A stretch of DNA of 64,000 nt from Pseudomonas sp. Gutcm_11s (GTDB lineage Bacteria > Pseudomonadota > Gammaproteobacteria > Pseudomonadales > Pseudomonadaceae). The notes under the pieces were generated by a model, which was not told the DNA's origin, did not search any database, and worked only from the letters and a program-made list of their open reading frames with translations. Location of the stretch: positions 1 to 64,000 of the forward strand of contig NZ_JAQSUW010000016.1 in assembly GCF_028649395.1 (NCBI RefSeq), given 5' to 3'. Both the position numbers and the translations under genes were made by a program. Positions 33,490 to 47,665 of the stretch are shown here, piece after piece; the stretch's first letter is position 1, and the number at the start of each line of letters is the position of its first letter.

Positions 33490-34884
33490 TCACCCAACCG
33501 GCTGCGCATGCAGCGCAGCGGAAGGGAAGTCGGTAGGTCGGCGCAGGCTGGCGTAGTAGCCCTCGTCCAGCTCACCCCAGCCCATCTGCCGGCGCAGTTT
33601 GCGCAGGTGGGTCTTCAGCGCGTGCACCTCCAGGTACACCTCGTGGCGCTGGGATTTGACGAAGTCGATGCCGCCCGAAAGGTCCGGATCATCCGTGGCG
33701 ATCAACTGCTCGAACTGCCGCGCCTGCTCCGGGCGCTGCAGCTGGTCGCGCAGGTAGCTGGCGATGGCGTGGGCCTCGTTGTCGAACAGCTTGTAGGCGC
33801 TGGAGTTGGTTTCCAGGTAGCCGATGCCGAACAGGTTGTGGTGCTGGCGGCTGAAGATCGACAGGTACAGCTGCGGGCGTCCGCTCTTCCATTCGAAGTA
33901 GTCGGCGGCGTACTTGCAGCTCCACTGGTAGCCGGTGGCGTAGAGCGCCAGGTCGATGCGTTCGCGGCTGCCGTCCTTGAACACCGCATGGTCGCCGTCG
34001 AAGTGGTCGAGATCGGGCTTGGCCTGGATGTCGCCGTGTTGCAGGTAGTGCAGCAGCTGGGTGTTCAGCAGCGGGTGGCTTTCGAACAGTTTGTGGTCCG
34101 GTCTGGGCAGACCGAAGCGGGTCAGGTCGCCGTTGATCACCCGCAGGAGCGCCTGGAAGATCGGCCGCACCAGCCAGATCGGCAGCTGCGGGCCCTTCTC
34201 GCTGACCTCGTCGGACGGCAGGCCGAATAGGTGTTTGGGGATGAAGTGGTAGCCGCGGCGCAGGCTGATAAAGGCTTTGTCGGCATGGGTGGCCGCGTCG
34301 CAGGCGATGTCCGCTCCGGAGTTGCCGGCGCCGATGATCAGCACGCGCTTGCCGCTGAATTCGGCGGCCTTCTTGTAGGTCGCCGAGTGGCGGATCTCGC
34401 CGTTGAACTGGCCCTTGATGGCCGGCATGTTCGGGTCCCAGTTGCAGCCGGTGGCGCAGACCACTGCGCGGTAGCTGCGCCGTTCGCCGTTGCCGAGGGT
34501 GACCAACCAGCGGCCGTCGTCACGCTTTTCCACCTTGCTCACCGCGGTGTTCAGGCGGATGCCGGCATACAGGTCAAAGGCCTGGGCGAAGGCGCGGACG
34601 TACTCGAGGATCTGCCGGTGGCTCGGGTAGTCGGGGAAGTGCTTAGGCATGGGGAAGTCGAGGAAGCCCGAGAGGTCGCGCGAGGAGATGAAGTGCGCGG
34701 ACTCGTACATCGGCGTGCCCGGATTGGTTATGTCCCACACGCCGCCGACGTCGCTGTGGCGTTCGAACTGTTCGTAGGCCAGACCCTGGCGCTTCAGCGC
34801 GCGGGCCATGCACAGGCCGCCGGGGCCGGCGCCGATGATGCACACGGCATCGCCGCAATCCTGGATGTCGTTCGCTGTGCTCAC
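33490..34884 (-). CDS. Flavin-containing monooxygenase (class B)
   Basis: FAD/NADPH-dependent oxygenase, 464 residues from GTG 34884 (STANDIQDCGDAVCIIGAG follows) behind GGAGCG; the longer open frame upstream overlaps the divergent promoter region. FAD-binding GAGPGG at 18-23, NADPH-binding GAGNSG, and between them FNGEIRHSATY, an exact match to the FxGxxxHxxxY fingerprint of FMO/Baeyer-Villiger enzymes. The C-terminal ~60 residues are charged and helical. Substrate unknown. Divergent from the cytochrome/oxidase operon with a 243-bp gap. Confidence 0.9.
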   Translation of the reverse strand: MSTANDIQDCGDAVCIIGAGPGGLCMARALKRQGLAYEQFERHSDVGGVWDITNPGTPMYESAHFISSRDLSGFLDFPMPKHFPDYPSHRQILEYVRAFAQAFDLYAGIRLNTAVSKVEKRDDGRWLVTLGNGERRSYRAVVCATGCNWDPNMPAIKGQFNGEIRHSATYKKAAEFSGKRVLIIGAGNSGADIACDAATHADKAFISLRRGYHFIPKHLFGLPSDEVSEKGPQLPIWLVRPIFQALLRVINGDLTRFGLPRPDHKLFESHPLLNTQLLHYLQHGDIQAKPDLDHFDGDHAVFKDGSRERIDLALYATGYQWSCKYAADYFEWKSGRPQLYLSIFSRQHHNLFGIGYLETNSSAYKLFDNEAHAIASYLRDQLQRPEQARQFEQLIATDDPDLSGGIDFVKSQRHEVYLEVHALKTHLRKLRRQMGWGELDEGYYASLRRPTDFPSAALHAQPVG

Positions 34885-35025
34885 GGGGCGCTCCGCTCGG
34901 GGTGTTGGCGATGCATTCACGTTAGCCAAGCCGATGCCGCTCCGGCAGGGGAGCGATGGCCGCGAAAGAGGGCAGCAACGGCCAGTCGACTGCTTCTGTC
35001 GCGACGTTGTGAGCGCATCGGGTGT

Positions 35026-35056
35026 TGGCCGTTTACCGGTTCCTGGCTGGCCGTTT
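35026..35056 (+). promoter_or_regulatory. Two 9-bp direct repeats, candidate AraC-family operator
   Basis: TGGCCGTTT occurs at 35026-35034 and 35048-35056, 22 bp apart (two helical turns), 72-102 bp before the cytochrome gene. Direct repeats at ~21-22 bp are typical of AraC/XylS sites, and an AraC-family gene lies at the other end of this cluster. Confidence 0.4.
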
Positions 35057-35127
35057 GAGACCTCATACGCCATGCGTCGCTGCTTTAGTGTGGCGCTATC
35101 GAGATGAGCTGAGACTCGGAGAGGACT

Positions 35128-35514
35128 ATGCAGGCAGGGCGAAACAGGGGTTGGCGCGGTTGGGCCATGGTGCTGGGGCTGGGCGCGCTGCTGGCCGGTT
35201 GTGGCGGTGACGATGCGCCGCAGGCGCAAGCCGCCGCCGGGCAGGGCGTGCCGCAGGATGCGGCGCTGGCGCAGCTGTACGGCGCCAGCTGCAAGCAGTG
35301 CCATGCCAACCCGGCCGCCGGCGCGCCGCTGACCGGCGATACCCTGGCCTGGGAACCGCGCCTGGAGAAGGGCATGGATACCCTGCTGGACCACAGCATC
35401 AACGGCTTCCAGGGCATGCCGCCGCTGGGACTGTGCATGCAATGCACGGAGCCGGACTTCCGCGCGCTGATCGAGTTCATGGCCGCCGCGCCGCAGCCTG
35501 CGGAGGGCCACTGA
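35128..35514 (+). CDS. Lipoprotein c-type cytochrome (cytochrome c5-like)
   Basis: 128 residues. Signal peptide with lipobox LLAGC (Cys25) predicts anchoring by a lipid. Haem-binding CKQCH at 55-59, likely axial Met97 in GMPPLG, and a second pair CMQC at 103-106 as in cytochrome c5. As a monohaem electron carrier it is placed to accept electrons from the oxidase encoded 1 bp downstream and pass them to the respiratory chain. ATG 35128 follows GGAGAGGACT. First gene of a three-gene operon. Confidence 0.88.
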   Translation: MQAGRNRGWRGWAMVLGLGALLAGCGGDDAPQAQAAAGQGVPQDAALAQLYGASCKQCHANPAAGAPLTGDTLAWEPRLEKGMDTLLDHSINGFQGMPPLGLCMQCTEPDFRALIEFMAAAPQPAEGH

Positions 35515-35515
35515 T

Positions 35516-36901
35516 ATGGTCTCCCGTCGTCAGCTGTTGCAACGCGCCAGCCTGCTGGGCGCCTGCCTGGCCTTGCCGGGCCGCTCGCTGTGGGCCGCAG
35601 AAACGCCGCGCCCCATTCCCTGGCGCAACTGGTCGGGCGTGCAGAGCTGCCTGCCGCTGGAGCGTCTGGCACCGAAGAATCTGGACGAGCTGGTGCAGGT
35701 CATCCGCAAAGCCTCGGGCAAGATCCGCCCGGTCGGCTCGGGGCATTCCTTCAGTGCGCTGGTACCCACCGACGATACCCTGCTGTCGCTGAGCAACTTC
35801 GCCGGGCTGCTGGCGCATGACGCGCAGACCCTGCAGGCGGAGTTCGGCAGCGGCACGCCGATGTCGACCATGGGCGCGCCGCTCAAGGAAGTCGGCCAGG
35901 CGCTGATCAACATGGCCGACACCGACTACCAGACCCTGGCCGGAGCCATTGCTACCTCGACCCACGGTACCGGTATCGGCTTCGGCTCCTACTCCTCCAA
36001 CGTCTGCGGCTTGCAGCTGGTCAGCGCCGCCGGCGAGGTGCTCGACTGCAGCCGCGAGCAGAACCCCGAGCTGTTCAATGCAGCGCGCGTCTCCCTCGGC
36101 GCGCTGGGCGTGGTGACCAAGGTGCGCATGCAGAACCGCGCCGCCTTCCGTCTGCGTGAGCGCCAGTGGCTGGGCAAGACCGAGGAGTTGCTGGAGGACA
36201 TCGACAACCTCAAGCGCGATAACCAGCACTGGGAAATGCTGGTGGTGACCCACTCCGACTACGCGCTGTCGGTGGCGCTGAACGAGACCGAGGACCCGAG
36301 CACGCCGCCGGTGCCGCCGGACGAGGAGGGCGGCAACGGCTTCATCGACATCATCGAGGGGCTGGACAAGCACCTGAGCGACTCGCCCGGCCTGCGCCGC
36401 AGCCTGCTCAACAACATGCGCCACCTGGCCAGCTTCGACGACCGGGTGGACGCGTCCTACGAGATATTCGCCAACGTGCGCAACGTGCGCTTCAACGAGA
36501 TGGAGTACTCGGTTCCGGCCGAGCACGGCCCGGCCTGCCTGCGCGAGATCCTCAAGCGCATCGACGACGGCAACCTGCGCACCTGGATGCCGGTCGAGTA
36601 CCGCTACGTGAAGGCCGACGACATCCCCCTGAGCATGTTCGAGGGGCGCGACAGTTGCGCGCTGTCAATCCACCAGCACCACTCGATGGACCATCGCGAC
36701 TTCTTCGCCGCCATCGAGCCGATCTTCTGGAAGTACGGAGGGCGGCCGCACTGGGGCAAGCTGCACAGCCTGGGCGCGCGCCAGCTGGCGGCGTTGTATC
36801 CGCGCTGGAAGGAGTTCACCGAACTGCGCCGGGACATCGATCCGCATGGGCGCTTCGTCAATGCGCATCTGGCCGGGCTGTTCGGCCTCAACATCGGATA
36901 A
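35516..36901 (+). CDS. Tat-exported FAD oxidase/dehydrogenase of the arabinonolactone/alditol oxidase (ALO) family
   Basis: 461 residues. N-terminal SRRQLLQRASLLGA is a twin-arginine type signal, cleaved near residue 28. The FAD-binding domain (about 45-220) shows RPVGSGHSFS, whose His77 is the position of covalent FAD in alditol oxidase, and LAGAIATSTHGTG. The ALO domain ends with HWGK near residue 412, the family C-terminal motif. Relatives oxidise sugar lactones or polyols. With a cytochrome c gene directly upstream, it is probably a periplasmic dehydrogenase rather than an O2-using oxidase. Substrate unknown. Confidence 0.88.
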   Translation: MVSRRQLLQRASLLGACLALPGRSLWAAETPRPIPWRNWSGVQSCLPLERLAPKNLDELVQVIRKASGKIRPVGSGHSFSALVPTDDTLLSLSNFAGLLAHDAQTLQAEFGSGTPMSTMGAPLKEVGQALINMADTDYQTLAGAIATSTHGTGIGFGSYSSNVCGLQLVSAAGEVLDCSREQNPELFNAARVSLGALGVVTKVRMQNRAAFRLRERQWLGKTEELLEDIDNLKRDNQHWEMLVVTHSDYALSVALNETEDPSTPPVPPDEEGGNGFIDIIEGLDKHLSDSPGLRRSLLNNMRHLASFDDRVDASYEIFANVRNVRFNEMEYSVPAEHGPACLREILKRIDDGNLRTWMPVEYRYVKADDIPLSMFEGRDSCALSIHQHHSMDHRDFFAAIEPIFWKYGGRPHWGKLHSLGARQLAALYPRWKEFTELRRDIDPHGRFVNAHLAGLFGLNIG

Positions 36902-36910
36902 GGAACGGCG

Positions 36911-38188
36911 ATGAAGCGACGCACTCTAGTGCTGGCCGGCCTGGGCGCCGGTGGTCTGCTGGCCGCTGCCTGGCTGCGTCCGGGTGACCGGGGCCAGCCG
37001 CACGATGCCTACTTCCAGGCGCTGAACCAGGAGCTCAAGGCCAACGGGCCGATGCGCCCGAGCCTGCTGATCGACCTCGACCGCCTCGATCACAATATCG
37101 AGGTGGTGCGCCAGTTCCTCGCCCGTAGCGGCAAGCAGCTGCGCCTGGTGGAGAAGTCGCTGCCGGCGCCCGGTCTGCTGCGCTATATCGGCGAGCGCAT
37201 CGGCACCCGCAAGCTGATGTCCTTCCACCAGCCGTTCCTCAATCACGATGCGCGGCTGTTCCCCGAGGCCGACATCCTGCTCGGCAAGCCGCTGCCGGTA
37301 CGCTCGGCGCAGCTGTTCTACCAGCAGCACAGCGGCCCCTTCGATCCGGCGAAGCAGCTGCAGTGGCTGATCGATACCCCCGAGCGCCTGCAGCAGTACC
37401 TGGAACTGGCCCGGGGGCTGGGTACGCGGCTGCGCATCAACATCGAGCTGGATGTGGGCCTGCACCGTGGCGGCGTCAGCGATACGCAGACGCTGGGGCA
37501 GTTGCTGCAGCTGATTGCGGATAACCCGCAGCAGCTGGAGTTCGCCGGGTTCATGGGTTACGACCCCTTCGTCGGCATGAACCTGCCATCGGTGCTGGGC
37601 AGCCAGGACGAACTGCTGGCCAAGGTGATGGCGCTGTATCAGGGTCATGTCGATTTCACCCGCCAGAAATTCCCGGCGCTGTGGCGCGAGGGCCTGACCC
37701 TGAATACCGCCGGCAGTCCCAGCTACCGCGCCCATGAGCACGAGACGCTGAGCAGCGAGGTGGCCATCGGCACCGGCCTGCTCAAGCCCAGTCACTACGA
37801 CCTGCCGTCGCTGGCCGAACATCAGCCGGCGGTGTATATCGCCACGCCGGTGCTCAAGCGCACGGGGGCGTTGCGTATTCCGGCGCTGGACGAGAAGTCG
37901 CGGTTGTTCGCCTGGTGGGACGTCAACCAGCGCGAGACCTTCTTCATCTATGGAGGCAACTGGCAGGCCGACCTGGCTTCGCCGGTCGGGCTGCAGCTGA
38001 GCGGCCTGTACGGGCGCAGCTCGAACCAGGAGCTGGTCAATGGCTCGCCCGCGGTGGGCCTGGCGGTGGACGACCAGGTGTTCCTGCGCCCGACCCAGAG
38101 CGAGGCGGTGTTGCTGCAGTTCGGCGATCTGCTGGCCGTGCGCGGCGGCAAGATCGTCGAGCGCTGGCCGGTGTATCAGGACTCCTGA
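36911..38188 (+). CDS. Exported PLP-dependent enzyme, DSD1 / D-threonine aldolase-like fold
   Basis: 425 residues. MKRRTLVLAGLGAGGLLAAA looks like a Tat signal or membrane anchor, unusual because this fold is normally cytoplasmic. An alanine-racemase-type barrel follows (LLIDLDRLDHNIEVVRQFL, LRLVEKSLPAPGLLRYI with the likely PLP lysine, INIELDVGLHRGG), then a D-serine-dehydratase-like C-terminal domain (AIGTGLLKPSHYDL, about 280-420). Predicted chemistry: aldol cleavage, dehydration or racemisation of a D-hydroxy amino acid. 9 bp after the oxidase gene, same operon. Its 3' end overlaps the converging AraC gene by 13 bp. Confidence 0.82.
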   Translation: MKRRTLVLAGLGAGGLLAAAWLRPGDRGQPHDAYFQALNQELKANGPMRPSLLIDLDRLDHNIEVVRQFLARSGKQLRLVEKSLPAPGLLRYIGERIGTRKLMSFHQPFLNHDARLFPEADILLGKPLPVRSAQLFYQQHSGPFDPAKQLQWLIDTPERLQQYLELARGLGTRLRINIELDVGLHRGGVSDTQTLGQLLQLIADNPQQLEFAGFMGYDPFVGMNLPSVLGSQDELLAKVMALYQGHVDFTRQKFPALWREGLTLNTAGSPSYRAHEHETLSSEVAIGTGLLKPSHYDLPSLAEHQPAVYIATPVLKRTGALRIPALDEKSRLFAWWDVNQRETFFIYGGNWQADLASPVGLQLSGLYGRSSNQELVNGSPAVGLAVDDQVFLRPTQSEAVLLQFGDLLAVRGGKIVERWPVYQDS

Positions 38189-39213
38189 GCGATCCGCTGC
38201 TTCGCTGTGCGTGGCGTCACCCCGGTCCAGCGCTTGAAGGCGCGGCGGAAGTTGCGCACGTCGCTGAAGCCGGTTTCGCTGGCCACGTCGATCAGCCGGC
38301 TGTCGCGGTGGCTGAGCAGAGCCAGGGCCTTGGCCCGGCGCACGGAGTCGACGATGCCGTGGTAGGACAGCCCGGCCTCGTCGATGCGCCGGCGCAGCGT
38401 GCGTTCGCCGAGGTTGAGTTGCTGCGCCAGCTCGGCCAGTTGCGGCGGGCGGCACAGGCTCTTGCGCACCTCGCGCTGGATGGTCTCGATCAGGTCGGAG
38501 CTGCCGTGCTGCTCCCAGCGCGCGCTGTCTAGCAGCTCGGCGATCTCGGCGGCCACGTAGTCGTCGCGGGTCGGTAGCGGCAGCTGCAGCCAGCTCGCGT
38601 CGAAGGCGATCAGGTTGTGCCCGGCACCGAACTTCACCGGGCAGCGGAATATGTCCGCGTAGCGCTGCCAGTGTGGTGGCCGCGGGTATTCCAGCTCGAT
38701 GCGGTCGATGATCAGGTCCTGGCCGGACAGGTGGCGGACGATGGCCTGGGCGCTGGCGAAGGCTTCTTCCAGGTAGAACACCGCCACTTCCGGATCGAAG
38801 AAGCGCGTGGTGGCGAACACCAGGCAGCGTTCGCCGCGCAGCTCCATCTCGCAGTCGAGCAGGGCGCCGGTGTGGCGCTGGTAACGGATGGCGAGGTCGA
38901 GCGCCTCGCCGAGTGTCGGGCTGGCCAGCATGGCCATGCCCACCAGGCCCCAGGATACGGCGGTCTGCCGATGGCCCACGGCCAGGCCCAGGCCGCTGTC
39001 GCCCAGGCTGTGCAGGGCGCGGCGCACCAGCAGGTAGCTCTGCCGGTAGGACAGGCGATAGTCGGGCTTCTTCAGGTCGTCGGGCTCGAAGCCCAGGCCT
39101 CGGCAGAGCATGGCCGGGTCGCGGCCGACGGCGGCTACGTGCTGCAGCAGGAAGCGGGAAATCTGCGGCGGGGCCGAGGCCTCCGAGTAACGCGGATCGT
39201 CGATGGGTTTCAT
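38176..39213 (-). CDS. AraC-family transcriptional regulator (Arabinose_bd / OruR-type)
   Basis: 345 residues from ATG 39213 (MKPIDDPRYSEASAPPQIS) behind GGGAG. N-terminal ligand-sensing domain about 25-210 (DYRLSYRQSYLLVRRALHSLGDSGLGLAVG), C-terminal double helix-turn-helix about 245-340 (LAQQLNLGERTLRRRIDEAGLSY, IDVASETGFSDVRNFRRAFKRWTGVTP). It converges on, and overlaps, the exported PLP enzyme gene. It probably controls the cytochrome/oxidase/PLP operon, which is inference from position and from the direct repeats at 35026-35056. Confidence 0.9.
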   Translation of the reverse strand: MKPIDDPRYSEASAPPQISRFLLQHVAAVGRDPAMLCRGLGFEPDDLKKPDYRLSYRQSYLLVRRALHSLGDSGLGLAVGHRQTAVSWGLVGMAMLASPTLGEALDLAIRYQRHTGALLDCEMELRGERCLVFATTRFFDPEVAVFYLEEAFASAQAIVRHLSGQDLIIDRIELEYPRPPHWQRYADIFRCPVKFGAGHNLIAFDASWLQLPLPTRDDYVAAEIAELLDSARWEQHGSSDLIETIQREVRKSLCRPPQLAELAQQLNLGERTLRRRIDEAGLSYHGIVDSVRRAKALALLSHRDSRLIDVASETGFSDVRNFRRAFKRWTGVTPRTAKQRIAQES

Positions 39214-39325: not shown

Positions 39326-39943
39326 CTAGTAGGCGCCCAGCTCGGCGGCCTGCTCGCCAGCGGCATGGTTGCCGGCGGCGCGGGCCTGGTCCTGGCGCAG
39401 GCGCTGGCCGGCGATCAGGCGCACCCACCAGGGCACTTTCTTCACCCGCTCGCCGCCCAGGCGCGCCAGCACATAGGCCATGGCGCATTTCTCGAACAGC
39501 TCGGCATTGAACAGCATGCGGTTGCGCGTCACGCCCAAGGCCAGCAGGCGGCCTGCGAGTGGCCCGGCGTTGCCGCCGCCGGCCAGCAGGCTCGGCAGAC
39601 GCTCGACCGTGGCGGGCGCCCAGGAGCGACCGATATGCCGCGCCTGTTCGTCGAACACCGACGGCATGGCCTCGCCGAGCTGCTGCAGTTGCAGGCTCCA
39701 GCGCGGGCTGAGCAGCGCCGCCGCACCGATGTCGCCGCGCAGGCGATAGAGCCGAGCGTGCAGGCCGGCCACGCCATCCTCGCTCTGGCCCAGGTCGACC
39801 TCGCGCGGCGCCTCGCCGTAGACCTGCAGCAGGATGCGCCCGGTGCCGGGCAGCAGCAGCGAGAGGCTGTCGCCACCGTCGTTGAACAGGCCCTTGGCGG
39901 CCAGGCGCTGGCTGGCCTGGAGCAGTTCGTCGTGCATGTTCAT
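39326..39943 (-). CDS. Class II aldolase-fold protein lacking zinc ligands (probable pseudoenzyme)
   Basis: 205 residues. The N-terminal half (LLQASQRLAAKGLFNDGGDSLSLLLPGTG) resembles the class II aldolase/adducin fold, but where the active aldolase encoded two genes upstream has VHTHQ and NHG, this protein has LLSPRWSLQLQQL and LGVTRNRM, so the zinc site is missing. The C-terminus is an unrelated basic and Ala-rich tail. ATG overlaps the aminotransferase stop by 4 bp, so it is produced with it. A regulatory or scaffold subunit is possible; function unknown. Confidence 0.7.
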   Translation of the reverse strand: MNMHDELLQASQRLAAKGLFNDGGDSLSLLLPGTGRILLQVYGEAPREVDLGQSEDGVAGLHARLYRLRGDIGAAALLSPRWSLQLQQLGEAMPSVFDEQARHIGRSWAPATVERLPSLLAGGGNAGPLAGRLLALGVTRNRMLFNAELFEKCAMAYVLARLGGERVKKVPWWVRLIAGQRLRQDQARAAGNHAAGEQAAELGAY

Positions 39944-41397
39944 ACCAGTTTGAACACGTCTTCGAAGCGGTTCAGCGCCTCGTCGATGATTTCATCGGTG
40001 TCGGCCGCGCTGGTGTACATGCGGCTGCCGGCCAGGGTCACCAGGCCGTGGGCCATGTAGGCGGCGCCCATCTCTTCCATCATGTGCTTGCGCGGGTTGA
40101 CCTCGCGCAGCAGCTGGATCGGGTTGCGCACGTTGAGCAGCAGCACGCCGGAAGTCTGCAGGTGCACCACTGAGCCCTGGTTGTAGACCACGTAGGGCAG
40201 GCCCAGGCGTTCGATGATCTGGCCTAGGCCGGCGGTCAGGCGGTCACCGGCGCGGCCGGCGACGGCCGGGGCGTTGCGCCGCTCGATTTCCAGCAGGCTG
40301 TGGTAGCCGGCCACGCAGGACAGCGGGTTGGCGGTCAGGGTGCCACCGACGAAGGCGCGCTTGGTCTGCTTGCCGCCGATGCCTCCGGCCAGCAGCATCA
40401 TCACCTCGCGACGCCCGCCGATGCCGCCGGCCATGGGGTAGCCGCCGGTCAGGCACTTGCCGAAGATGGTCAGGTCGGGCAGCACGTTGAAGTAGCCCTG
40501 GGCACCGGACAGGCCGACGCGGAAGCCGCTGACCACCTCGTCGAAGATCAGCAGCGCGCCGAACTCGTCGCACAGCTTGCGCAGGTTGGCGTTGAACTCG
40601 CGGTGTGCCGGGCGGGTGCCGCTCTCCGGGCCCAGCGGCTCGACGATGATCGCCGCGGTGCCGCCGCGCAGGCGGTTGATCTGCAGGCGCCGGCGGATGG
40701 CGGCCAGGTCGTTGGGGAAGCTCTCCTGGGTGTGCGAAGTGGCGCCGCGCGGAATGCCGATGGCCTCGCGCCGGCCGGTGCCGGGAATGCGCATGCCGTA
40801 CACCAGCTGGTCGCTCCAGCCGTGGTAGGCGCCGCCGATCTTGATCACCCATTTCTTGCCGGTATAAGCGCGGGCCAGGCGGATCGCCCCCATCACCGAT
40901 TCGGTGCCGGAGGAGAGCATGCGGAACATCTCCACCGACGGCACCATGCGGCAGACCTGCTCGGCCAGCTTGACCTCGTACTCGTGCAGCAGGCCGGTGA
41001 CCGGGCCGCAGTCGCGCAGGGTCTCGATCACCTTCTCCTGCACCACCGGGTCGTTGCTGCCGAGCAGGGTTGGGCCGCCGGCCTGGAGGAAGTCGATGTA
41101 GCGGTTGCCGTCGACGTCTTGCAGATGCGCGCCTTCCGCCTTGTTCATCGCCAGCGGGAAGGGATAGTTGAACGCCAGGTTGTGCTGCACTCCGCCGGGG
41201 ATGACCGCGCAGGCCTGCTCGGCCAACTGCTTGGAGGTGCGGCAGTTGTTCTCGAAGTAGCCGAGCACCTTGTCCATGTGCTCGCGGCGGATCGGCCGGA
41301 TCGGCTGCTTGATCAGCGTCTTCAGGCGCGCGTCGATGGCATCGGTATCCGGCCAGTGGCTGATGCCGGAGGTGGGCAGTTCGGTGGAGGCGTTCAT
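39940..41397 (-). CDS. Class III PLP aminotransferase / aminomutase (glutamate-1-semialdehyde aminomutase-like)
   Basis: 485 residues. PLP contacts: SSGTES (about 162-167), YHGW (191-194), FDEVVSGFR with Asp286, and Lys314 in FGKCLTGGYPMAGG, which forms the Schiff base. The GG-S/T-TY motif FVGGTLTANPL follows. An N-terminal extension of about 60 residues precedes the usual family start. It is not hemL itself: that gene is normally elsewhere and the protein is about 55 residues longer. Overlaps both neighbours by ATGA, so it belongs to the kinase-aldolase operon. Substrate probably a carbonyl or amino compound of that pathway. Confidence 0.88.
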   Translation of the reverse strand: MNASTELPTSGISHWPDTDAIDARLKTLIKQPIRPIRREHMDKVLGYFENNCRTSKQLAEQACAVIPGGVQHNLAFNYPFPLAMNKAEGAHLQDVDGNRYIDFLQAGGPTLLGSNDPVVQEKVIETLRDCGPVTGLLHEYEVKLAEQVCRMVPSVEMFRMLSSGTESVMGAIRLARAYTGKKWVIKIGGAYHGWSDQLVYGMRIPGTGRREAIGIPRGATSHTQESFPNDLAAIRRRLQINRLRGGTAAIIVEPLGPESGTRPAHREFNANLRKLCDEFGALLIFDEVVSGFRVGLSGAQGYFNVLPDLTIFGKCLTGGYPMAGGIGGRREVMMLLAGGIGGKQTKRAFVGGTLTANPLSCVAGYHSLLEIERRNAPAVAGRAGDRLTAGLGQIIERLGLPYVVYNQGSVVHLQTSGVLLLNVRNPIQLLREVNPRKHMMEEMGAAYMAHGLVTLAGSRMYTSAADTDEIIDEALNRFEDVFKLV

Positions 41398-42029
41398 CGC
41401 AGATCCTCTTCTAGGAATTCGAGCGTCTGTCGGTACAGGCGGTTATCGGGTTGCGCAGCCAGGGCGCGGCGGAACCAGGCGATGGCTTCCTGCTCCAGCA
41501 GCCGCACCACGGTGCAGGCGTCTTCCAGGGTGGCGCCGAGGCAGACGGCGCCGTGATTGCGCATCAGGTAGGCATTGAGGTCGGCGCGCACGCGCTTGCC
41601 GACATTGCTGGCCAGCCAACTGGTGCCGGAAGGCGCATAGGCGCACATCGGTACCTCGGCGCCGATCAGCCGGCGCGCCTCGGCACCGTGCATCGGCAAT
41701 GGTCGGTCGAGCAGGGTGAAGGCGCTGGCCACCGGCTGGTGGGTATGCACGCTGGCCATGCAGTCCGGCCGCGCCTGCAGCGCGCGGGCGTGCAGGCCGC
41801 TCTCCACCGAGGGCTTGCCGCCACCTGCGAGCTGCTCGAGGTTGTCCAGGCGCAGCACGCAGATGTCGTCCGCGGTCATCGCGTAGTAGTCGCTGGCCGA
41901 GGGCGTGACGGCGAAACGCTCGGCGTCGATGCGCAACGCCAGGTTGCCGCCGACACCGGCCAGGTAGCCCTGGTCGGCCAGGGCGACGGCGGTGCGCACC
42001 ACCGCCTCGCGGGCTTCGCGCTCGTTCAT
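41394..42029 (-). CDS. Class II aldolase (fuculose-1-phosphate aldolase/adducin family)
   Basis: 211 residues from ATG 42029 (MNEREAREAVVRTAVALADQ); a much longer open frame upstream is antisense to nothing real and is out of frame with the kinase. Catalytic set is intact: Glu76 (SVESGLH), zinc ligands His95 and His97 (VHTHQ) and His159 (MRNHG). Such enzymes cleave a ketose- or aldose-phosphate retro-aldolically to DHAP or a similar piece and an aldehyde, or decarboxylate. Coupled by 4-bp overlaps to the kinase before it and the aminotransferase after it. Confidence 0.9.
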   Translation of the reverse strand: MNEREAREAVVRTAVALADQGYLAGVGGNLALRIDAERFAVTPSASDYYAMTADDICVLRLDNLEQLAGGGKPSVESGLHARALQARPDCMASVHTHQPVASAFTLLDRPLPMHGAEARRLIGAEVPMCAYAPSGTSWLASNVGKRVRADLNAYLMRNHGAVCLGATLEDACTVVRLLEQEAIAWFRRALAAQPDNRLYRQTLEFLEEDLR

Positions 42030-43606
42030 CGTGGGTCTCCATGGAGCTTGGCGTAGAAGGGCGCCAGCGCTTTGTGCGCGGCGCGGAAGGTGGCGTAGCT
42101 GTCGGTGTAGCGCTGGCGGTGCGCGGCCTGCGGCTCGAAGCGGCGGCGGATGGCGACCCGCTCGGCGAGATCGGAAAACTTCAGTGCGCCGATGCCGACT
42201 CCGGCAAGGAACGCGGCGCCGCGGGCATTGGCCTGGATCGGCTGCTCGGGCTGCAGCACGGTCATGTCCAGTACGTCGGCGAAGACCTGGCTCCACACAT
42301 CGGACTGGCCGCCGCCACCGACCAGGGTGATGCTGTCCGGCCGGGTGCCGAGGAAGCTGCGCACCGATTCCATCATCCAGCGGGTGTTGAGCGCCACGCC
42401 CTCGAGGAAGGCGCGCACCATGTCTTCGCGGGCATGCTCCAGGCTCAGGTTGAGCAGGCCGGCGCGCAGATGGCTGTCGTCCACCGGGGTGCGTTCGCCC
42501 ATCAGCCAGGGCAGGTAGAGCAGGCCGCGGGCACCGGCCGGCACGCCAGCGGCGATCTCGTCGAGGATGCGGTAGACGTCCGGGCCGGCCTCGTTCTGCA
42601 GCAGGGCATCTTTGGCGTAGAGGATGCGGTCGCGCAGGAAGCTGAGGTTGGCGCCGGCGGCGGACTGCATGGCCATCATCAGGTAGCGGTCGGGCAGGGC
42701 GCAGGGCACGGCGGCGATCTGCCTGAACACGTCGGTCTTCTTCTGCGCCACGTGGGCGCCGATCCAGGACGAGGTGCCGACGTACAGGTGCAGGGCGTGG
42801 TCCGCCACGGCGCCGGAGCCCAGCGCCGATGCGGTGTTGTCCACCGCACCGGCCACCACCGGCAGACCGGCGGGCAGGCCGAGCTTCTCGGCCACGGTCG
42901 GGCGCAGCGGGCCGAGGATGTCGCTGCAGCGCACCAGCTCCGGCAGCTGTTCGCGGCGTAGCCCGGCCAGGCGCAGCAGGCCGTCGTCGTAGCGGATGTT
43001 GGCCGGGTCGCGGTTGTCGGTGACCCAGGTGGTCAGCGCCGAATCCACGGTGGCGGCGATGCGCCCGGTCAGGCGCAGGTTCATGAAATCGAGGACGTTG
43101 AGGAACTTGTCGGTGCGCGCGTACAGCTCCGGCATCTCCTCGCGGATGAAGGCGATGTGGCCGAACGGGTCCTTGCCGGACAGCGCCGGCGCGCCGCCGG
43201 TGAGGCGCAGCCAGCGCCACAGCTTGAGCGGGTCGTAGCCGGCCACGCGCGGCAGGGCACCGCCGACCTGGCGCTGCACCGCGGCCTGGCCGCGCATGTC
43301 CATGTACAGCATGGCGCGGGCCAGCGGATTGCCGTCGCGGTCCACCGGCAGGGTGCCTTCGCCCTGGCAGGAGCAGGCCAGCGCGACGATGTTCGAGCGG
43401 GTGATCTCGGGGCGCTGCAGCACCTCGGCGGCGCTTTCCTCGAAGGCGCGCCACCAGTCTTCCGGGCACTGTTCGACGCCGGCGCCGGGCAGCAGGTGGT
43501 TGCTCACCGCGCGGAAAGCGAAGGCACGCACGTGGCCATCCAGGCCGACCAGGGCGGTCTTGCAGCCAGAGCTGCCAAGGTCCACGGCCAGTACCAGTTC
43601 ACTCAC
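42026..43606 (-). CDS. FGGY-family carbohydrate kinase
   Basis: 526 residues from GTG 43606 (SELVLAVDLGSSGCKTALVG follows); upstream in-frame codons contain no better start. Phosphate-binding DLGSSGCKT at 9-17; C-terminal adenosine region LVGGGGQSDVWSQVFADVLDMTVLQPEQPIQ-like near 435-465. Xylulokinase-like length and order. Phosphorylates a sugar, polyol or related substrate before the aldolase step. First gene of the operon; faces tetR across a 25-bp palindrome. Confidence 0.9.
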   Translation of the reverse strand: MSELVLAVDLGSSGCKTALVGLDGHVRAFAFRAVSNHLLPGAGVEQCPEDWWRAFEESAAEVLQRPEITRSNIVALACSCQGEGTLPVDRDGNPLARAMLYMDMRGQAAVQRQVGGALPRVAGYDPLKLWRWLRLTGGAPALSGKDPFGHIAFIREEMPELYARTDKFLNVLDFMNLRLTGRIAATVDSALTTWVTDNRDPANIRYDDGLLRLAGLRREQLPELVRCSDILGPLRPTVAEKLGLPAGLPVVAGAVDNTASALGSGAVADHALHLYVGTSSWIGAHVAQKKTDVFRQIAAVPCALPDRYLMMAMQSAAGANLSFLRDRILYAKDALLQNEAGPDVYRILDEIAAGVPAGARGLLYLPWLMGERTPVDDSHLRAGLLNLSLEHAREDMVRAFLEGVALNTRWMMESVRSFLGTRPDSITLVGGGGQSDVWSQVFADVLDMTVLQPEQPIQANARGAAFLAGVGIGALKFSDLAERVAIRRRFEPQAAHRQRYTDSYATFRAAHKALAPFYAKLHGDPR

Positions 43607-43657
43607 GATTTTTGTCTCGTTTGCATCGGCCTCTTTCCATTCTGCGAGAGTCGCGCT

Positions 43658-43682
43658 AAAACATAAGCATTGCTCATGTTTT
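43658..43682. promoter_or_regulatory. 25-bp palindrome, candidate operator for the adjacent TetR regulator
   Basis: The two arms AAAACAT (43658-43664) and ATGTTTT (43676-43682) flank AGCA-T-TGCT (43666-43674). Only one symmetric pair (43665/43675) fails to match. It lies 52 bp from the kinase start and 11 bp from the tetR start, so one bound dimer could block both promoters. Confidence 0.75.
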
Positions 43683-43692
43683 CGAGAATGCT

Positions 43693-44364
43693 GTGGCCAA
43701 CAAAACCTTGTCAAGCACCCCCGAGGTGAAACCCAAAGCACCGCGTGCTCCCAAGCAGGAGCGTAGCCAGGCGCGCTTCGAGTCGATCCTCAAGGTCGCC
43801 CTCGAACTGATCGCTGCACGCGGCTACGAGGCGGTATCGATGCGCGAGATCGCCCGCGAGGCCGGTCTGCCGATCGCCTCGCTGTACCTGTATTTCCCGA
43901 CCAAGCTGGCCATCGTCAAGGAGGTCTGGCAGCGCTACACCAGCAGCGTCAGCGAGCGTCTGGAAGAGGATCTCAAGCTGATCGTCGACCCGGCCAGCAG
44001 CGCTGATGCCGGCCTGCTGATCGAGCGGCTGATCGACCTGATGGTGGAGATCCAGATCAGCCATCCGGGCTTCGTCGAGGTGTGGGGTTGCGTGGCGGCG
44101 GCGCCGGAACTGCGCGAGCTGAACCAGGCCGACACTCTGGCCACCGCGGGCATGGTCGCCACGGCGATCCTCAGCGCTCATCCGAATGTCGATCCGGAGC
44201 AGGCCGAGGGCCTGGCGCTGGTGCTGTGCGAGGGCGGCAGCTCGGTGACCAAGCTGGCCCTGACCCTGCCGGCCGAGCAGCGCCAACAGCGGGTTCAGCA
44301 GCTCAAGCGCACCCTGCAGTTCATTTACACCAGCAGCCTCGAGGCCTTTGCCCGGCAGGCGTAG
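43693..44364 (+). CDS. TetR-family transcriptional regulator
   Basis: 223 residues from GTG 43693. A ~25-residue basic tail (KPKAPRAPKQERSQAR) precedes the DNA-binding domain about 28-75 (LELIAARGYEAVSMREIAREAG, LPIASLYLYFPTKLAIV). The C-terminal region is a typical helical ligand/dimer domain. It diverges from the kinase-aldolase-aminotransferase operon and probably represses it and itself through the palindrome at 43658-43682. Inducer unknown. Confidence 0.9.
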   Translation: MANKTLSSTPEVKPKAPRAPKQERSQARFESILKVALELIAARGYEAVSMREIAREAGLPIASLYLYFPTKLAIVKEVWQRYTSSVSERLEEDLKLIVDPASSADAGLLIERLIDLMVEIQISHPGFVEVWGCVAAAPELRELNQADTLATAGMVATAILSAHPNVDPEQAEGLALVLCEGGSSVTKLALTLPAEQRQQRVQQLKRTLQFIYTSSLEAFARQA

Positions 44365-44506: not shown

Positions 44507-46288
44507 ATGTCGCATAACAAGAGCAAGATAGCGCTGGCAGTTGGGATAGGAATCTGGGGGATACAGGCCCAGGCGTTCGAGATCGACACCGGGCCGAATG
44601 TCACCACGTCGCTGGAGAGCGTCGCCGAGTTCACCTCGGTGTACCGCACCAGTTCGCCCGAGCACATCGAGCAGGGCGGGCAGAACGTCTTCATCAACAA
44701 CAACGACGGTAGCGAGTACTACGACACCGGCTTTGTCTCCAACGAATTCAAGCTGACCTCGGAGCTGCATGTGCGCACCGAGCAGGACGGCATGTTCGTG
44801 CGCGGCACCGCCTGGTACGACACCCAGATCATGGATAACGATCCCACGGGTGACGGCTTCGCAACGCATAACACCGACAGCGACGAGCGCTATCCCTCCG
44901 ATCTGAAGAACCGTTCCGGCCATCGCGCGCGCCTGCTCGACGCCTACCTCTACACCAACCGCTACATCGGCGAGCACCCGGTCAGCCTGCGTTTCGGCCG
45001 TCAGGTGATCAACTGGGGCGAGGGCATCTTCTATGCCGACGGCCTCAACGTGATCAACCCGGTGGATATCGGCCGCGTGGTGCTGCCCAACGCCAGCTTC
45101 AAGGACGCGCTGCTGCCGACCAACATGATCTCCGGTCAGTTCGGCCTGACCGACCAGCTCAACGTCGAGGCGTTCTACGGCCTGGAGTGGAAGGGCCACG
45201 AACTGATCCCCACCGGCGCCTTCCTCAACAACCAGGACTACTTCGGCAAGGGCAGCAACGGCGTGCTGGTCGACCTGCGCGGCGAGCTGGGTCCGCTGGC
45301 AGAGCTGGTGCCGGGGCTCAATGGCGAGAACGGCATCGTCGCCGGCGCCCGCTACGGTCGCGAGCACGACGCCCGCGATGACGGCCAGTTCGGCGTGGCG
45401 ACGCGCTATCTGGTGGAGGACTGGAACAACACCGAGTTCAGCCTCTACTACCTCAACTACCATAGCAAGGTGCCGTTCCTGAGCGTTAAGAAAGGCAATT
45501 CCTTTGCCTGCAGCAGCGGCACGGCCGGCCAGTTCAGTGGCTTGTGCGGCCTGGGCCTGGACTCGGTGGTCGACGGCCTGGCCCTGCTCGACAGCACCTA
45601 CTACGACTTCATCTATCCCGAGGACATCCGCCTGTTCGGCCTCAGTGTCTCCGGCACCGTGGGCGACACCAGCGTCGCCGGTGAGCTGACCTACCGGCCC
45701 AACGCGCCGCTGGAACCGGCGATGACCTACGAGCTGGAACAGATGGCCGAGGGCGCCCTGGGGGGCAATGGCGCCAGTGGCGGCAGCATCGACCTGGGCG
45801 AGTTCGGCGACGGCTCGGCCAACGACCCGCGCCGCTACATCGACTTGTACAAGCGCGACGAACTGTTCACCGGCTCGCTGTCCACCATCCACACCTTCGG
45901 CCCCACCGCCGGCATGGATGACCTGATGTTGCTGGCCGAGGCCGCCTTCAACTACATCCCCGGCAGCCTGCTGGATACGCCGAACTACGCCTACCTGGAC
46001 TCCTTCGCCTGGGGTTACACGGTGAACTTCTCCGGCCTGATCCAGGATGTGCAGCCCAACTTCGACCTGATGCCCGGCATCACCTTCCGCCAGGACGTGT
46101 CCGGTACCTCGCCGGCGCTCAACGAGAACTTCATCCAGGGGCGCAAGTCCGCCACCCTCGAACTGGGCGGCAAGTACGGCCAGAAGCTGGCCGGCAAGCT
46201 GGCGTACACCTCGTTCTGGGGCGCGCGTAAGGACAACGCGCTGATCGACCGCGACCACGTCGCCTTCAACGTCTCCTATTCCTTCTGA
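44507..46288 (+). CDS. DUF1302 family outer-membrane protein
   Basis: 593 residues: signal peptide about 1-23 (ending QAQA), then a strand-rich protein with many alternating aromatic/polar segments and a C-terminal aromatic end (FNVSYSF), consistent with an outer-membrane beta-barrel. Family signatures include LRFGRQVINWGEGIFYADGLNVINPVD. Two cysteines in the loop CSSGTAGQFSGLC may form a disulfide. DUF1302 genes are nearly always paired with DUF1329, and some such pairs accompany uptake of steroids or other hydrophobic compounds. ATG 44507 is 142 bp after tetR. Confidence 0.88.
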   Translation: MSHNKSKIALAVGIGIWGIQAQAFEIDTGPNVTTSLESVAEFTSVYRTSSPEHIEQGGQNVFINNNDGSEYYDTGFVSNEFKLTSELHVRTEQDGMFVRGTAWYDTQIMDNDPTGDGFATHNTDSDERYPSDLKNRSGHRARLLDAYLYTNRYIGEHPVSLRFGRQVINWGEGIFYADGLNVINPVDIGRVVLPNASFKDALLPTNMISGQFGLTDQLNVEAFYGLEWKGHELIPTGAFLNNQDYFGKGSNGVLVDLRGELGPLAELVPGLNGENGIVAGARYGREHDARDDGQFGVATRYLVEDWNNTEFSLYYLNYHSKVPFLSVKKGNSFACSSGTAGQFSGLCGLGLDSVVDGLALLDSTYYDFIYPEDIRLFGLSVSGTVGDTSVAGELTYRPNAPLEPAMTYELEQMAEGALGGNGASGGSIDLGEFGDGSANDPRRYIDLYKRDELFTGSLSTIHTFGPTAGMDDLMLLAEAAFNYIPGSLLDTPNYAYLDSFAWGYTVNFSGLIQDVQPNFDLMPGITFRQDVSGTSPALNENFIQGRKSATLELGGKYGQKLAGKLAYTSFWGARKDNALIDRDHVAFNVSYSF

Positions 46289-46297
46289 CGGCGGAAC

Positions 46298-47665
46298 ATG
46301 ACCATGACCAGAACAGTTTTGTGCGCCTCTTCAGTCCTGCTCTCCCTCGGTCTGCTGCTGCCGCTGGCGGCCCAGGCCAAGGTGAGTGCCGAGCAGGCGG
46401 CGCAGCTCGGTAGCAACCTGACCGCCTTCGGCGCTGAGCGCCAGGGCGATGCCGCCAAGGGCATTCCCGAGGCCGGGGGCGGCTTGCAGGCCCCAGCCGG
46501 CTATGGCGGCCCTGGCAGCTTCCATGTCGACCCCTTCGCCGGCGACAAGCCGCTGCGCATCATCGATGTGCAGAACATGGCGGCCGATGACGCCAACCTC
46601 AGCCCCGGGGTGAAGGCACTGCTCAAGGCCTACCCGCAGAGCTTCAAGGTGCCAGTCTACCCCAGCCATCGCAGCTTCGCCGCGCCCAGCGACATCGCCG
46701 CCAACACCCGGCGCAATGCCGAGCAGGCGACCCTGGCCGAGGGCGGCAACGGGCTCAAGGATGCCTATGCCGGCATTCCCTTCCCGATCCCGGCGGACGG
46801 CCGCGAGGCGATCTGGAACCACATCGCCCGCTGGCAGGGGCGCTACATCGACGAGGTGTCGGTAACCGCCCAGGTCACCACCAGCGGCAGCTACTCCATC
46901 CTGCGCGAGCGCATCCAGCTGCTGTCCAACTACTACAACCCGAAGAAGGACGCCGGCAGCCTGGACAACATGCTGTATTCCTTCGCCAGTGAACTGCTGC
47001 CGCCGTCGCGCGACGTCGGCCGTGCGCTGCTGGTGCACGAGACCATCGACCAGGTCGCCGAGCCGCGTTCGGCGTGGATCTACAACCCCGGACAGCGCCG
47101 CGTGCGCCGCGCGCCGACCCTGGCCTACGACACGCCGATCGACGGTATTTATGCCGACGACACCGACATGTACAACGGCGCCACCGATCGTTACGACTGG
47201 AAGCTGATCGGCAAGCAGAGCCTGCTGGTGCCCTACCACAACTACGCCATGGAGAAGCCGGGGCTGAAGGTCGACGAGCTGGTCAAACCCGGCCACCTCA
47301 ACAGCGACCTGAGCCGCTGGGAGATGCACCGCGTGTGGGTGGTCGAGGCCACGCTGCGCCCTGGCCAGCGCCACGTGCATGCCAAGCGGCGCTTCTACCT
47401 GGACGAGGACAGCTGGTACGCCCTGATGGTGGAGAACTACGATGCCCGCGGAGAGCTGTGGCACGTTAACCTGGCCTTCAGCAAGAACGCCTACGAGGTG
47501 CCCAGCATCACCCCGGTGAACCTGGTCTACCACGACCTGATCGCCCGCACCTACACGGTGATCGGCCTGCGCAACAACGAGAAGGCGCCACGCCAGTTCC
47601 TCCTGACGCCACCGCCGGAGAACTACTTCACCCCCGCCAGCCTGCGCCGCAAGGGCACCCAGTAG
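46298..47665 (+). CDS. DUF1329 family periplasmic/outer-membrane-associated protein
   Basis: 455 residues: signal peptide about 1-28 (LLPLAAQA), then the DUF1329 domain (IPFPIPADGREAIWNHIARWQG, WIYNPGQRRVRRAPTLAYD, RWEMHRVWVVEATLRPGQRH). The fold is thought to be LolA/LolB-like, which fits binding of a lipophilic molecule and partnership with the DUF1302 barrel 9 bp upstream. Ends 8 bp before the MITE-like element, which takes the place of its terminator. Confidence 0.88.
   Translation: MTMTRTVLCASSVLLSLGLLLPLAAQAKVSAEQAAQLGSNLTAFGAERQGDAAKGIPEAGGGLQAPAGYGGPGSFHVDPFAGDKPLRIIDVQNMAADDANLSPGVKALLKAYPQSFKVPVYPSHRSFAAPSDIAANTRRNAEQATLAEGGNGLKDAYAGIPFPIPADGREAIWNHIARWQGRYIDEVSVTAQVTTSGSYSILRERIQLLSNYYNPKKDAGSLDNMLYSFASELLPPSRDVGRALLVHETIDQVAEPRSAWIYNPGQRRVRRAPTLAYDTPIDGIYADDTDMYNGATDRYDWKLIGKQSLLVPYHNYAMEKPGLKVDELVKPGHLNSDLSRWEMHRVWVVEATLRPGQRHVHAKRRFYLDEDSWYALMVENYDARGELWHVNLAFSKNAYEVPSITPVNLVYHDLIARTYTVIGLRNNEKAPRQFLLTPPPENYFTPASLRRKGTQ

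Follow-up and report, generated by a model that had tools for sequence, protein, structure and literature searches.

The window analysed here is the whole 64,000-nucleotide stretch at positions 1 to 64,000 of contig NZ_JAQSUW010000016.1 from Pseudomonas sp. Gutcm_11s (RefSeq assembly GCF_028649395.1), and it carries four minus-strand genes that form one operon and encode an FGGY-family kinase (KIN), a class II aldolase (ALD), a class III aminotransferase (AT) and an aldolase-fold protein that lacks zinc ligands (DALD). From the genes present, their conservation, their linkage to sph genes and to regulators of the SphR clade, the retained motifs of the aldolase and a conserved palindrome, we infer a substrate and a reaction for each step, and propose that this operon probably serves to degrade and detoxify sphingoid bases, with phytosphingosine (2-amino-octadecane-1,3,4-triol) as the likeliest substrate. 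Sphingoid bases are antimicrobial barrier lipids, and phytosphingosine, which is toxic, is the major plant long-chain base and also a fungal lipid. This base has been reported to inhibit or kill plant-associated bacteria (PMC8776846).

The four genes of the operon, in the order in which they would be transcribed, are as follows.

42026 to 43606, minus strand: KIN, FGGY-family kinase of 526 amino acids with a GTG start at 43606 (PF00370/PF02782).
41394 to 42029, minus strand: ALD, class II aldolase of 211 amino acids with its catalytic motifs retained (PF00596, Aldolase_II).
39940 to 41397, minus strand: AT, class III pyridoxal phosphate (PLP) aminotransferase of 485 amino acids (PF00202, Aminotran_3, 172 bits against a cut-off of 30.5).
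39326 to 39943, minus strand: DALD, aldolase-fold protein of 205 amino acids without zinc ligands and with a conserved FDEQ.R motif of its own.

Each of the three junctions between these genes is a 4-bp ATGA overlap, and the gene coordinates and Pfam matches bear out the description, given in a first-pass annotation of this sequence, of a four-gene minus-strand operon with such overlaps that is divergent from a tetR gene.

Conservation of the gene set was assessed by scanning GTDB species genomes with AT and keeping the best 80 of 195 relatives (67-98% identity), with each cassette locus taken as the AT position and up to 10 kb on either side, some loci being shortened by contig ends; loci are referred to below by L numbers. 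The 80 loci span genomes of Pseudomonas, Burkholderiales, Xanthomonadales, Acidobacteria, spirochaetes and Chloroflexi, and AT is accompanied by ALD in 79, by KIN in 75 and by DALD in 68 of them (the last counted at a bit score >80; L059 has a weaker DALD). Several of the loci without one cassette gene lie on short contigs, and the Chloroflexi loci are without DALD. The set turns up repeatedly in genomes of Pseudomonadota, Acidobacteria, spirochaetes and Chloroflexi, so its grouping is more than chance, and the genes constitute a conserved cassette; they do travel together, whereas the first-pass annotation had named genes that do not as a refutation of its reading.

Family matches place the products in broad classes. 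For example, KIN matches the two FGGY domains well above their Pfam cut-offs (FGGY_N, 113 bits against 28.8; FGGY_C, 104 bits against 27) and falls in no named FGGY substrate class (xylulokinase, gluconokinase or others), since 12 of 12 NCBIfam matches are below cut-off and the nearest model, xylulokinase, is far under it. The two top NCBIfam matches of ALD, ribulose-1-phosphate aldolase (the best) and L-fuculose-phosphate aldolase, are both far under cut-off, and no NCBIfam cut-off was reached by KIN, ALD or AT among the matches listed (the best 25 were considered for ALD and AT). Direct assignment to a named sugar pathway was rejected, as the listed NCBIfam matches of KIN and ALD all lie far below their cut-offs. 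ALD can nonetheless be aligned with solved FucA-family aldolases across the catalytic regions, including a glutamate and three histidines that we take to have the catalytic and zinc-binding roles known from FucA-type enzymes, and these motifs are retained in >90% of 80 aligned sequences. The next-closest paralogues of AT in Pseudomonas genomes are ~40% identical to it.

The neighbourhood of the cassette is what links it to sphingoid bases. Downstream of the operon in the window lie the following genes.

35128 to 35514, plus strand: SphB-like small cytochrome c (PF13442, cytochrome CBB3).
35516 to 36901, plus strand: SphC-like oxidase of the D-arabinono-lactone oxidase family (PF04030 and PF01565).
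36911 to 38188, plus strand: SphD-like PLP enzyme with an alanine racemase N-terminal fold (PF01168).
38176 to 39213, minus strand: AraC-family regulator of the SphR clade (Arabinose_bd and HTH_18).

The families reported for SphB, SphC and SphD of Pseudomonas aeruginosa are those of these window homologues (PMC5150637), and the sphB-, sphC- and sphD-like genes are consecutive and on one strand (35128-38188). A search for SphC drew on 50 of the 80 loci, representing 49 cassette genomes outside the window's clade and not including L050. Eleven of these 49 genomes had one SphC homologue each, and in 8 of the 11 its coordinates lie inside the cassette locus of ±10 kb, a linkage for which the binomial figure is 2e-17, with lineages that are not independent; in L023, L041 and L043 SphC lies outside the cassette locus. 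Genes for SphB, SphC and SphD are consecutive beside the cassettes of L047, L050, L054, L055, L060, L066 and L071, that is, in 6 of the 8 SphC-linked loci plus L050, while L027 has C and D and L065 has C only.

The regulator gives a second line of evidence. In a tree of 59 AraC sequences (rows), one clade with 100/100 support holds the window AraC, 6 of 6 AraCs from sph loci, 32 of 33 cassette-side AraCs and none of 19 paralogues, the paralogues being drawn from four Pseudomonas genomes only; the exception, L057_19287, lies ~8 kb from its cassette. What is called the SphR clade here is anchored on these sph-locus AraCs and not on P. aeruginosa SphR itself, and sph loci were recognized by their sphBCD content, the gene order of L112 and the published SphR motif before sphB. 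Consistent with the tree, the window AraC is the best match in its genome for the AraC of the L112 sph locus (235 versus 156 bits). The 49 cassette genomes together contain 29 AraCs closely related to that of the window, of which 15 lie within the cassette locus by coordinates and two more lie at a distance of 7-15 kb from the L034 kinase. SphR-clade AraCs adjoin cassettes in several families, and in genome G010, where cassette and SphC are ~278 kb apart, one top relative of the window AraC stands beside each (242 and 234 bits, the next scoring 153).

Genes that recur near the 80 cassettes (>80 bits) encode a major facilitator superfamily (MFS) transporter (41 loci), an aldehyde dehydrogenase (ALDH; 39), a TorF porin (35), a DUF2147 protein (35) and an AraC regulator (24). 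At least 50% identity to the class-3 ALDH of L050, used as query, is found in 21 of the 39 ALDH neighbours, and the second-best solved relative of that query is a fatty aldehyde dehydrogenase (4qgk, E 4e-100). Neither an isomerase nor a sugar ABC transporter was found among the identified clusters of recurrent neighbours.

Taken together, these associations suggest the following pathway. AT would first turn the 2-amino group of phytosphingosine into a ketone, yielding 1,3,4-trihydroxy-octadecan-2-one, a product that would be a ketose in form with a C14 hydrocarbon tail. KIN would phosphorylate the C1 hydroxyl of this long-chain ketone to give a ketose-1-phosphate, and ALD would split the C3-C4 bond of the ketone phosphate into pentadecanal and dihydroxyacetone phosphate (DHAP), the latter passing to glycolysis. 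The class-3 ALDH, whose linkage to the cassette is seen in many genomes, the window's clade excepted, would then oxidize pentadecanal to pentadecanoic acid for beta-oxidation, and control of the neighbouring sph genes probably falls to the SphR-type AraC. Application of the Cahn-Ingold-Prelog rules by hand assigns 3R,4R to the ketone derived from D-ribo-phytosphingosine, which is also the configuration of D-ribulose and L-fuculose, and the NCBIfam ribulose-1-phosphate aldolase model presumably acts on the D-form. This stereochemistry matches that of the two nearest NCBIfam aldolases of ALD and supports the choice of phytosphingosine as substrate, as do the linked class-3 ALDH and the Mpo1-like genes found beside a few cassettes. 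In addition, SphR is reported to bind phytosphingosine (PMC5150637).

More broadly, and with slightly less assurance than for the proposal above, we lean towards the view that phytosphingosine is handled as if it were a sugar by a widespread bacterial pathway in which transamination, phosphorylation and a FucA-type split yield DHAP and pentadecanal without a sphingosine-1-phosphate lyase, in parallel to sphBCD. The first-pass annotation had placed the kinase and aldolase on a nitrogen-bearing polyol, which remains a good reading of the pair, but the small amino sugar or polyol that it had in mind is less well supported than a long-chain amino-polyol, namely a sphingoid base. Its suggestion that an aldehyde is transaminated after cleavage also fits less well than transamination before phosphorylation and cleavage, considering neighbours that include sphBCD, SphR-type regulators and a fatty-aldehyde-type ALDH.

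Several observations weigh against a phytosphingosine pathway. In P. aeruginosa, sphBC are reported to matter for growth with phytosphingosine, one of three bases in all, so the cassette would not be the only route (PMC11893366). No gene for an ALDH or MFS transporter of the linked type lies within 10 kb in the window-clade loci L013-L020, and the closest ALDH in the window's genome is 40% identical and located elsewhere. Both SphC and a SphR-clade AraC are missing within ±10 kb from 49 of the 80 loci, Chloroflexi included (31 of 80 have one or the other), and within the genus 13 of 199 genomes have the cassette, 45 of 199 have SphC and 6 have both, a co-occurrence (6 of 13 cassette genomes against 39 of 186 others) that is not significant (Fisher p 0.078). 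No SphR-like site with ≤6 mismatches is present in the 86-bp gap before KIN in the window. Since 39 of 50 genomes have Mpo1-like genes, the few near a cassette could partly be there by chance. Finally, a neutral ceramidase is rare among cassette genomes (4 of 49) and none was detected in the genome of the window, which means that the substrate would have to come from free bases or by way of other amidases.

It is possible, although unlikely, that the cassette acts on sphingoid bases generally, such as sphingosine and sphinganine, or only disarms them by transamination or phosphorylation, and that no C3-C4 cleavage specific to phytosphingosine takes place. Aldol cleavage requires a 4-hydroxyl, which sphingosine and sphinganine do not have, so these bases could not be split at C3-C4, and the ALD motifs are kept in >90% of the 80 sequences; the Mpo1-like genes by several cassettes likewise point to phytosphingosine or phytoceramide. 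Arguing for the broader substrate range, the linkage evidence from SphC and the AraC tree points to a class of compounds and not to one base, and sphBC are reported to matter for three bases (PMC11893366). For disarming alone, it is relevant that phytosphingosine-1-phosphate is reported not to have inhibited Pseudomonas syringae (PMC8776846).

It is quite improbable that the operon acts on an amino sugar or amino-polyol that is small and water-soluble, as the first-pass annotation had it, and that the sph genes just happen to lie nearby. In favour of this reading, sugars are the usual substrates of FGGY kinases and FucA-type aldolases, the linked type of MFS transporter is present in 41 of 80 loci, and the 49 loci without a nearby SphC or SphR-clade gene would fit this explanation. 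It is harder to reconcile with the presence of SphC at the cassette in 8 of 11 genomes, with SphR-clade AraCs by cassettes of several families, with a linked ALDH of fatty-aldehyde type or with the identified recurrent neighbours, which include neither an isomerase nor a sugar ABC transporter. Salvage of the 5-deoxyribose or methylthioribose DHAP-shunt type, with a class II aldolase acting on 5-substituted ribulose-1-phosphates, is very improbable. It would account for the place of 6btd/6btg (an aldolase from Bacillus thuringiensis that we take to be a 5-deoxyribose disposal enzyme) among the close solved relatives of both ALD and DALD, but it would leave the aminotransferase without explanation, and neither the cassette nor the identified recurrent neighbours include an isomerase or a nucleosidase.

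The proposed phytosphingosine pathway shares features with several known systems. Like the SphR/SphBCD system of P. aeruginosa, the window has homologues of sphB, sphC and sphD and a SphR-clade AraC, which suggests the same class of substrate; it differs in that the kinase, aldolase, aminotransferase and zinc-less aldolase lie outside the published SphR regulon, a TetR gene faces the operon, and a homologue of sphA was not found in the window. As in the L-fuculose, L-rhamnulose and ribulose-1-phosphate pathways, an FGGY kinase would form a ketose-1-phosphate from which a FucA-like aldolase releases DHAP, but the ketone would be made by transamination where those pathways use an isomerase, and its alkyl chain would be long. 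Eukaryotes degrade phytosphingosine by a lyase of the sphingosine-1-phosphate type, followed in yeast by alpha-oxidation of the 2-hydroxy acid by Mpo1. Both routes would turn phytosphingosine into a fatty aldehyde and acid of odd chain length, and Mpo1-like genes lie by some cassettes; unlike the eukaryotic route, the one proposed here would free the C15 aldehyde in a single aldol step, produce DHAP instead of ethanolamine phosphate, and need neither a lyase nor alpha-oxidation of the base. The 5-deoxyribose and methylthioribose DHAP shunt resembles the proposal in that its class II aldolase, as ALD would do, acts on a ketose-1-phosphate whose tail is not a sugar, but the cassette has an aminotransferase and a kinase of FGGY type and, in the genes and recurrent neighbours scanned, no isomerase.

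A bacterial transaminase-kinase-aldolase route was not found in the open-licence PMC literature among the matches listed, a search in which subscription papers and preprints could be missed, nor did those matches include a cluster whose substrate had been assigned by experiment. Kinase plus class II aldolase catabolism and sphingoid base metabolism are each known; their combination is new as far as this literature shows. Authors writing in 2025 named the SphBC-dependent product of sphingosine and sphBC-independent sphingosine systems as unidentified (PMC11893366), and the cassette, found in many genera and on plasmids, is a concrete candidate for bacterial breakdown of sphingoid bases. If the proposal is correct, there would be an aldol route from a lipid base to glycolysis, some bacteria would have two parallel ways (sphBCD and the cassette) to open sphingoid bases, families that now carry no more than generic kinase, aldolase and aminotransferase annotations would gain a function, and sphingolipid roles would be suggested for the DUF1302/DUF1329, TorF, DUF2147 and flavin monooxygenase (FMO) genes.

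The fourth cassette protein, DALD, has no Pfam match. It aligns with ALD at an hhalign probability of 99.5 and 19% identity, and its AlphaFold (AF2) model (mean pLDDT 93.7) has class II aldolases, such as Escherichia coli FucA, as top Foldseek matches (TM ~0.75, E ~1e-9). In the hhalign alignment the active site is replaced, with the HTH zinc pair of ALD aligned to LSP and the catalytic Glu to Ala. An alignment of the window protein with 25 chosen homologues (n=26) contains 25 invariant columns, including FDEQ.R, and for this reason DALD is a maintained protein and not debris. The description of a dead aldolase in the first-pass annotation therefore holds for the lost zinc site but not for the protein as a whole, which might, as a guess, be a partner or regulatory subunit.

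Control of the operon may involve the divergent regulator and the gap that separates it from KIN.

43693 to 44364, plus strand: TetR-family regulator, divergent from the cassette (PF00440, TetR_N, with TetR_C_22/TetR_C_15).
43658 to 43682, no strand: palindrome in the KIN/tetR gap with 11 of 12 arm positions matched, candidate TetR operator.

The gap of 86 bp contains AAAACATAAGCA-t-TGCTCATGTTTT (12-bp arms, 11/12 matched). The window holds 35 palindromes with 10-bp arms (≥9/10), and the rarity of this one is not notable alone. Its 21-bp core recurs with 0-2 mismatches upstream of KIN in every one of the 10 related loci that were compared (L013-L020, L113 and L114), and this recurrence supports the palindrome as an operator. 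The TetR palindrome noted at first reading is thus both present and conserved in its core, and the TetR protein probably represses the operon through this candidate operator.

Other features of the flanks concern the sph genes more than the cassette.

44507 to 46288, plus strand: DUF1302 protein (PF06980).
46298 to 47665, plus strand: DUF1329 protein paired with it (PF07044).
33490 to 34884, minus strand: FMO-like flavin monooxygenase (PF00743).
34948 to 34984, minus strand: SphR-like direct repeat with spacer 7 in the FMO/sphB gap, reading towards FMO, with 2 mismatches to the consensus.

In the window, as in its clade, cassette and tetR sit exactly between the SphR-like AraC and DUF1302/DUF1329, and in the cassette-free Pseudomonas relatives L109 and L110 sphBCD, AraC and DUF1302-DUF1329 are contiguous. 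L112 shows the published order, in which sphR is divergent from sphA and sphBCD is convergent with sphR, and its SphA is a Phenol_MetA_deg channel. With this SphA as a tblastn query, no match to the sphA outer-membrane channel was found in the window, and matches were confined to L108, L111, L112 and L116. In L109 (11383-14551) and L110 (11196-14380), DUF1302/DUF1329 is directly divergent from the SphR-like AraC, which is the published place of sphA. At the level of a guess, the DUF1302 and DUF1329 proteins could be parts of a sphingoid-base transport system.

The SphR direct-repeat consensus reported for P. aeruginosa (PMC3900636) was also used to scan 18 loci before sphB, where it occurs with 1 mismatch in 9, 2 mismatches in 6 and 3 mismatches in 2; L109 has no such motif at ≤3 mismatches. 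Repeats of the quality of the one in the FMO/sphB gap number 9 in the 64-kb window against 3.0 in Markov shuffles, which is weak evidence alone, and a repeat with 4 mismatches at 35026-35062 points towards sphB. The FMO/sphB site of the window is shared by L014, L015, L113 and L114 and is weaker in L017, and in all of these loci, as in the window, the best SphR-like site faces FMO and not sphB. A SphR site in the AraC/kinase gap of Duganella and its relatives was considered and rejected, because the best repeats there have at least 4 mismatches and are no better than background.

FMO genes in fluorescens-group islands have a SphR-like site with ≤2 mismatches in 7 of 7 loci (4 of them at 1 mismatch), compared with 60 (≤2 mismatches) and 10 (1 mismatch) of 3000 random 263-bp stretches of the loci, the seven FMO loci being close relatives. 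On the basis of these sites, the window FMO may be a further SphR-type unit, and an FMO gene is absent from the table of the published P. aeruginosa SphR regulon (PMC3900636). Genes for an FMO-like monooxygenase and a short-chain dehydrogenase/reductase (SDR) occur in islands L037, L041, L042, L045, L046, L049 and L052, the seven scanned for the site, and in L141, and in L049 and L141 they are followed by an Mpo1-like gene.

Mpo1, a 2-hydroxypalmitic acid dioxygenase with a part in the breakdown of phytosphingosine in yeast, belongs to PF06127. Members of this family lie beside the cassettes of L049 and L077 (intact in both), L115 and a Burkholderia ambifaria plasmid, and in the cassette locus the gene is truncated in L065 and has a stop in L041. 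The window's genome has three Mpo1-like genes, none at the cassette; one of them (C13:23269-23553) adjoins an AraC paralogue (24111-25070) that falls outside the SphR clade. In L142 (Albitalea genome G225:C22), an Mpo1-like gene is ~6 kb from a neutral ceramidase gene.

The cassette is also found on plasmids. The B. ambifaria plasmid, from a rhizosphere strain (L137, NZ_CP152372.1), is predicted to be conjugative by MOB-suite typing and carries an island with genes for the kinase, aldolase, aminotransferase, zinc-less protein, TetR, MFS transporter, TorF, DUF2147 protein, SDR and ALDH. A Butyrivibrio rumen plasmid carries a kinase-aldolase-aminotransferase version of the cassette. Transposase genes surround the island of L137.

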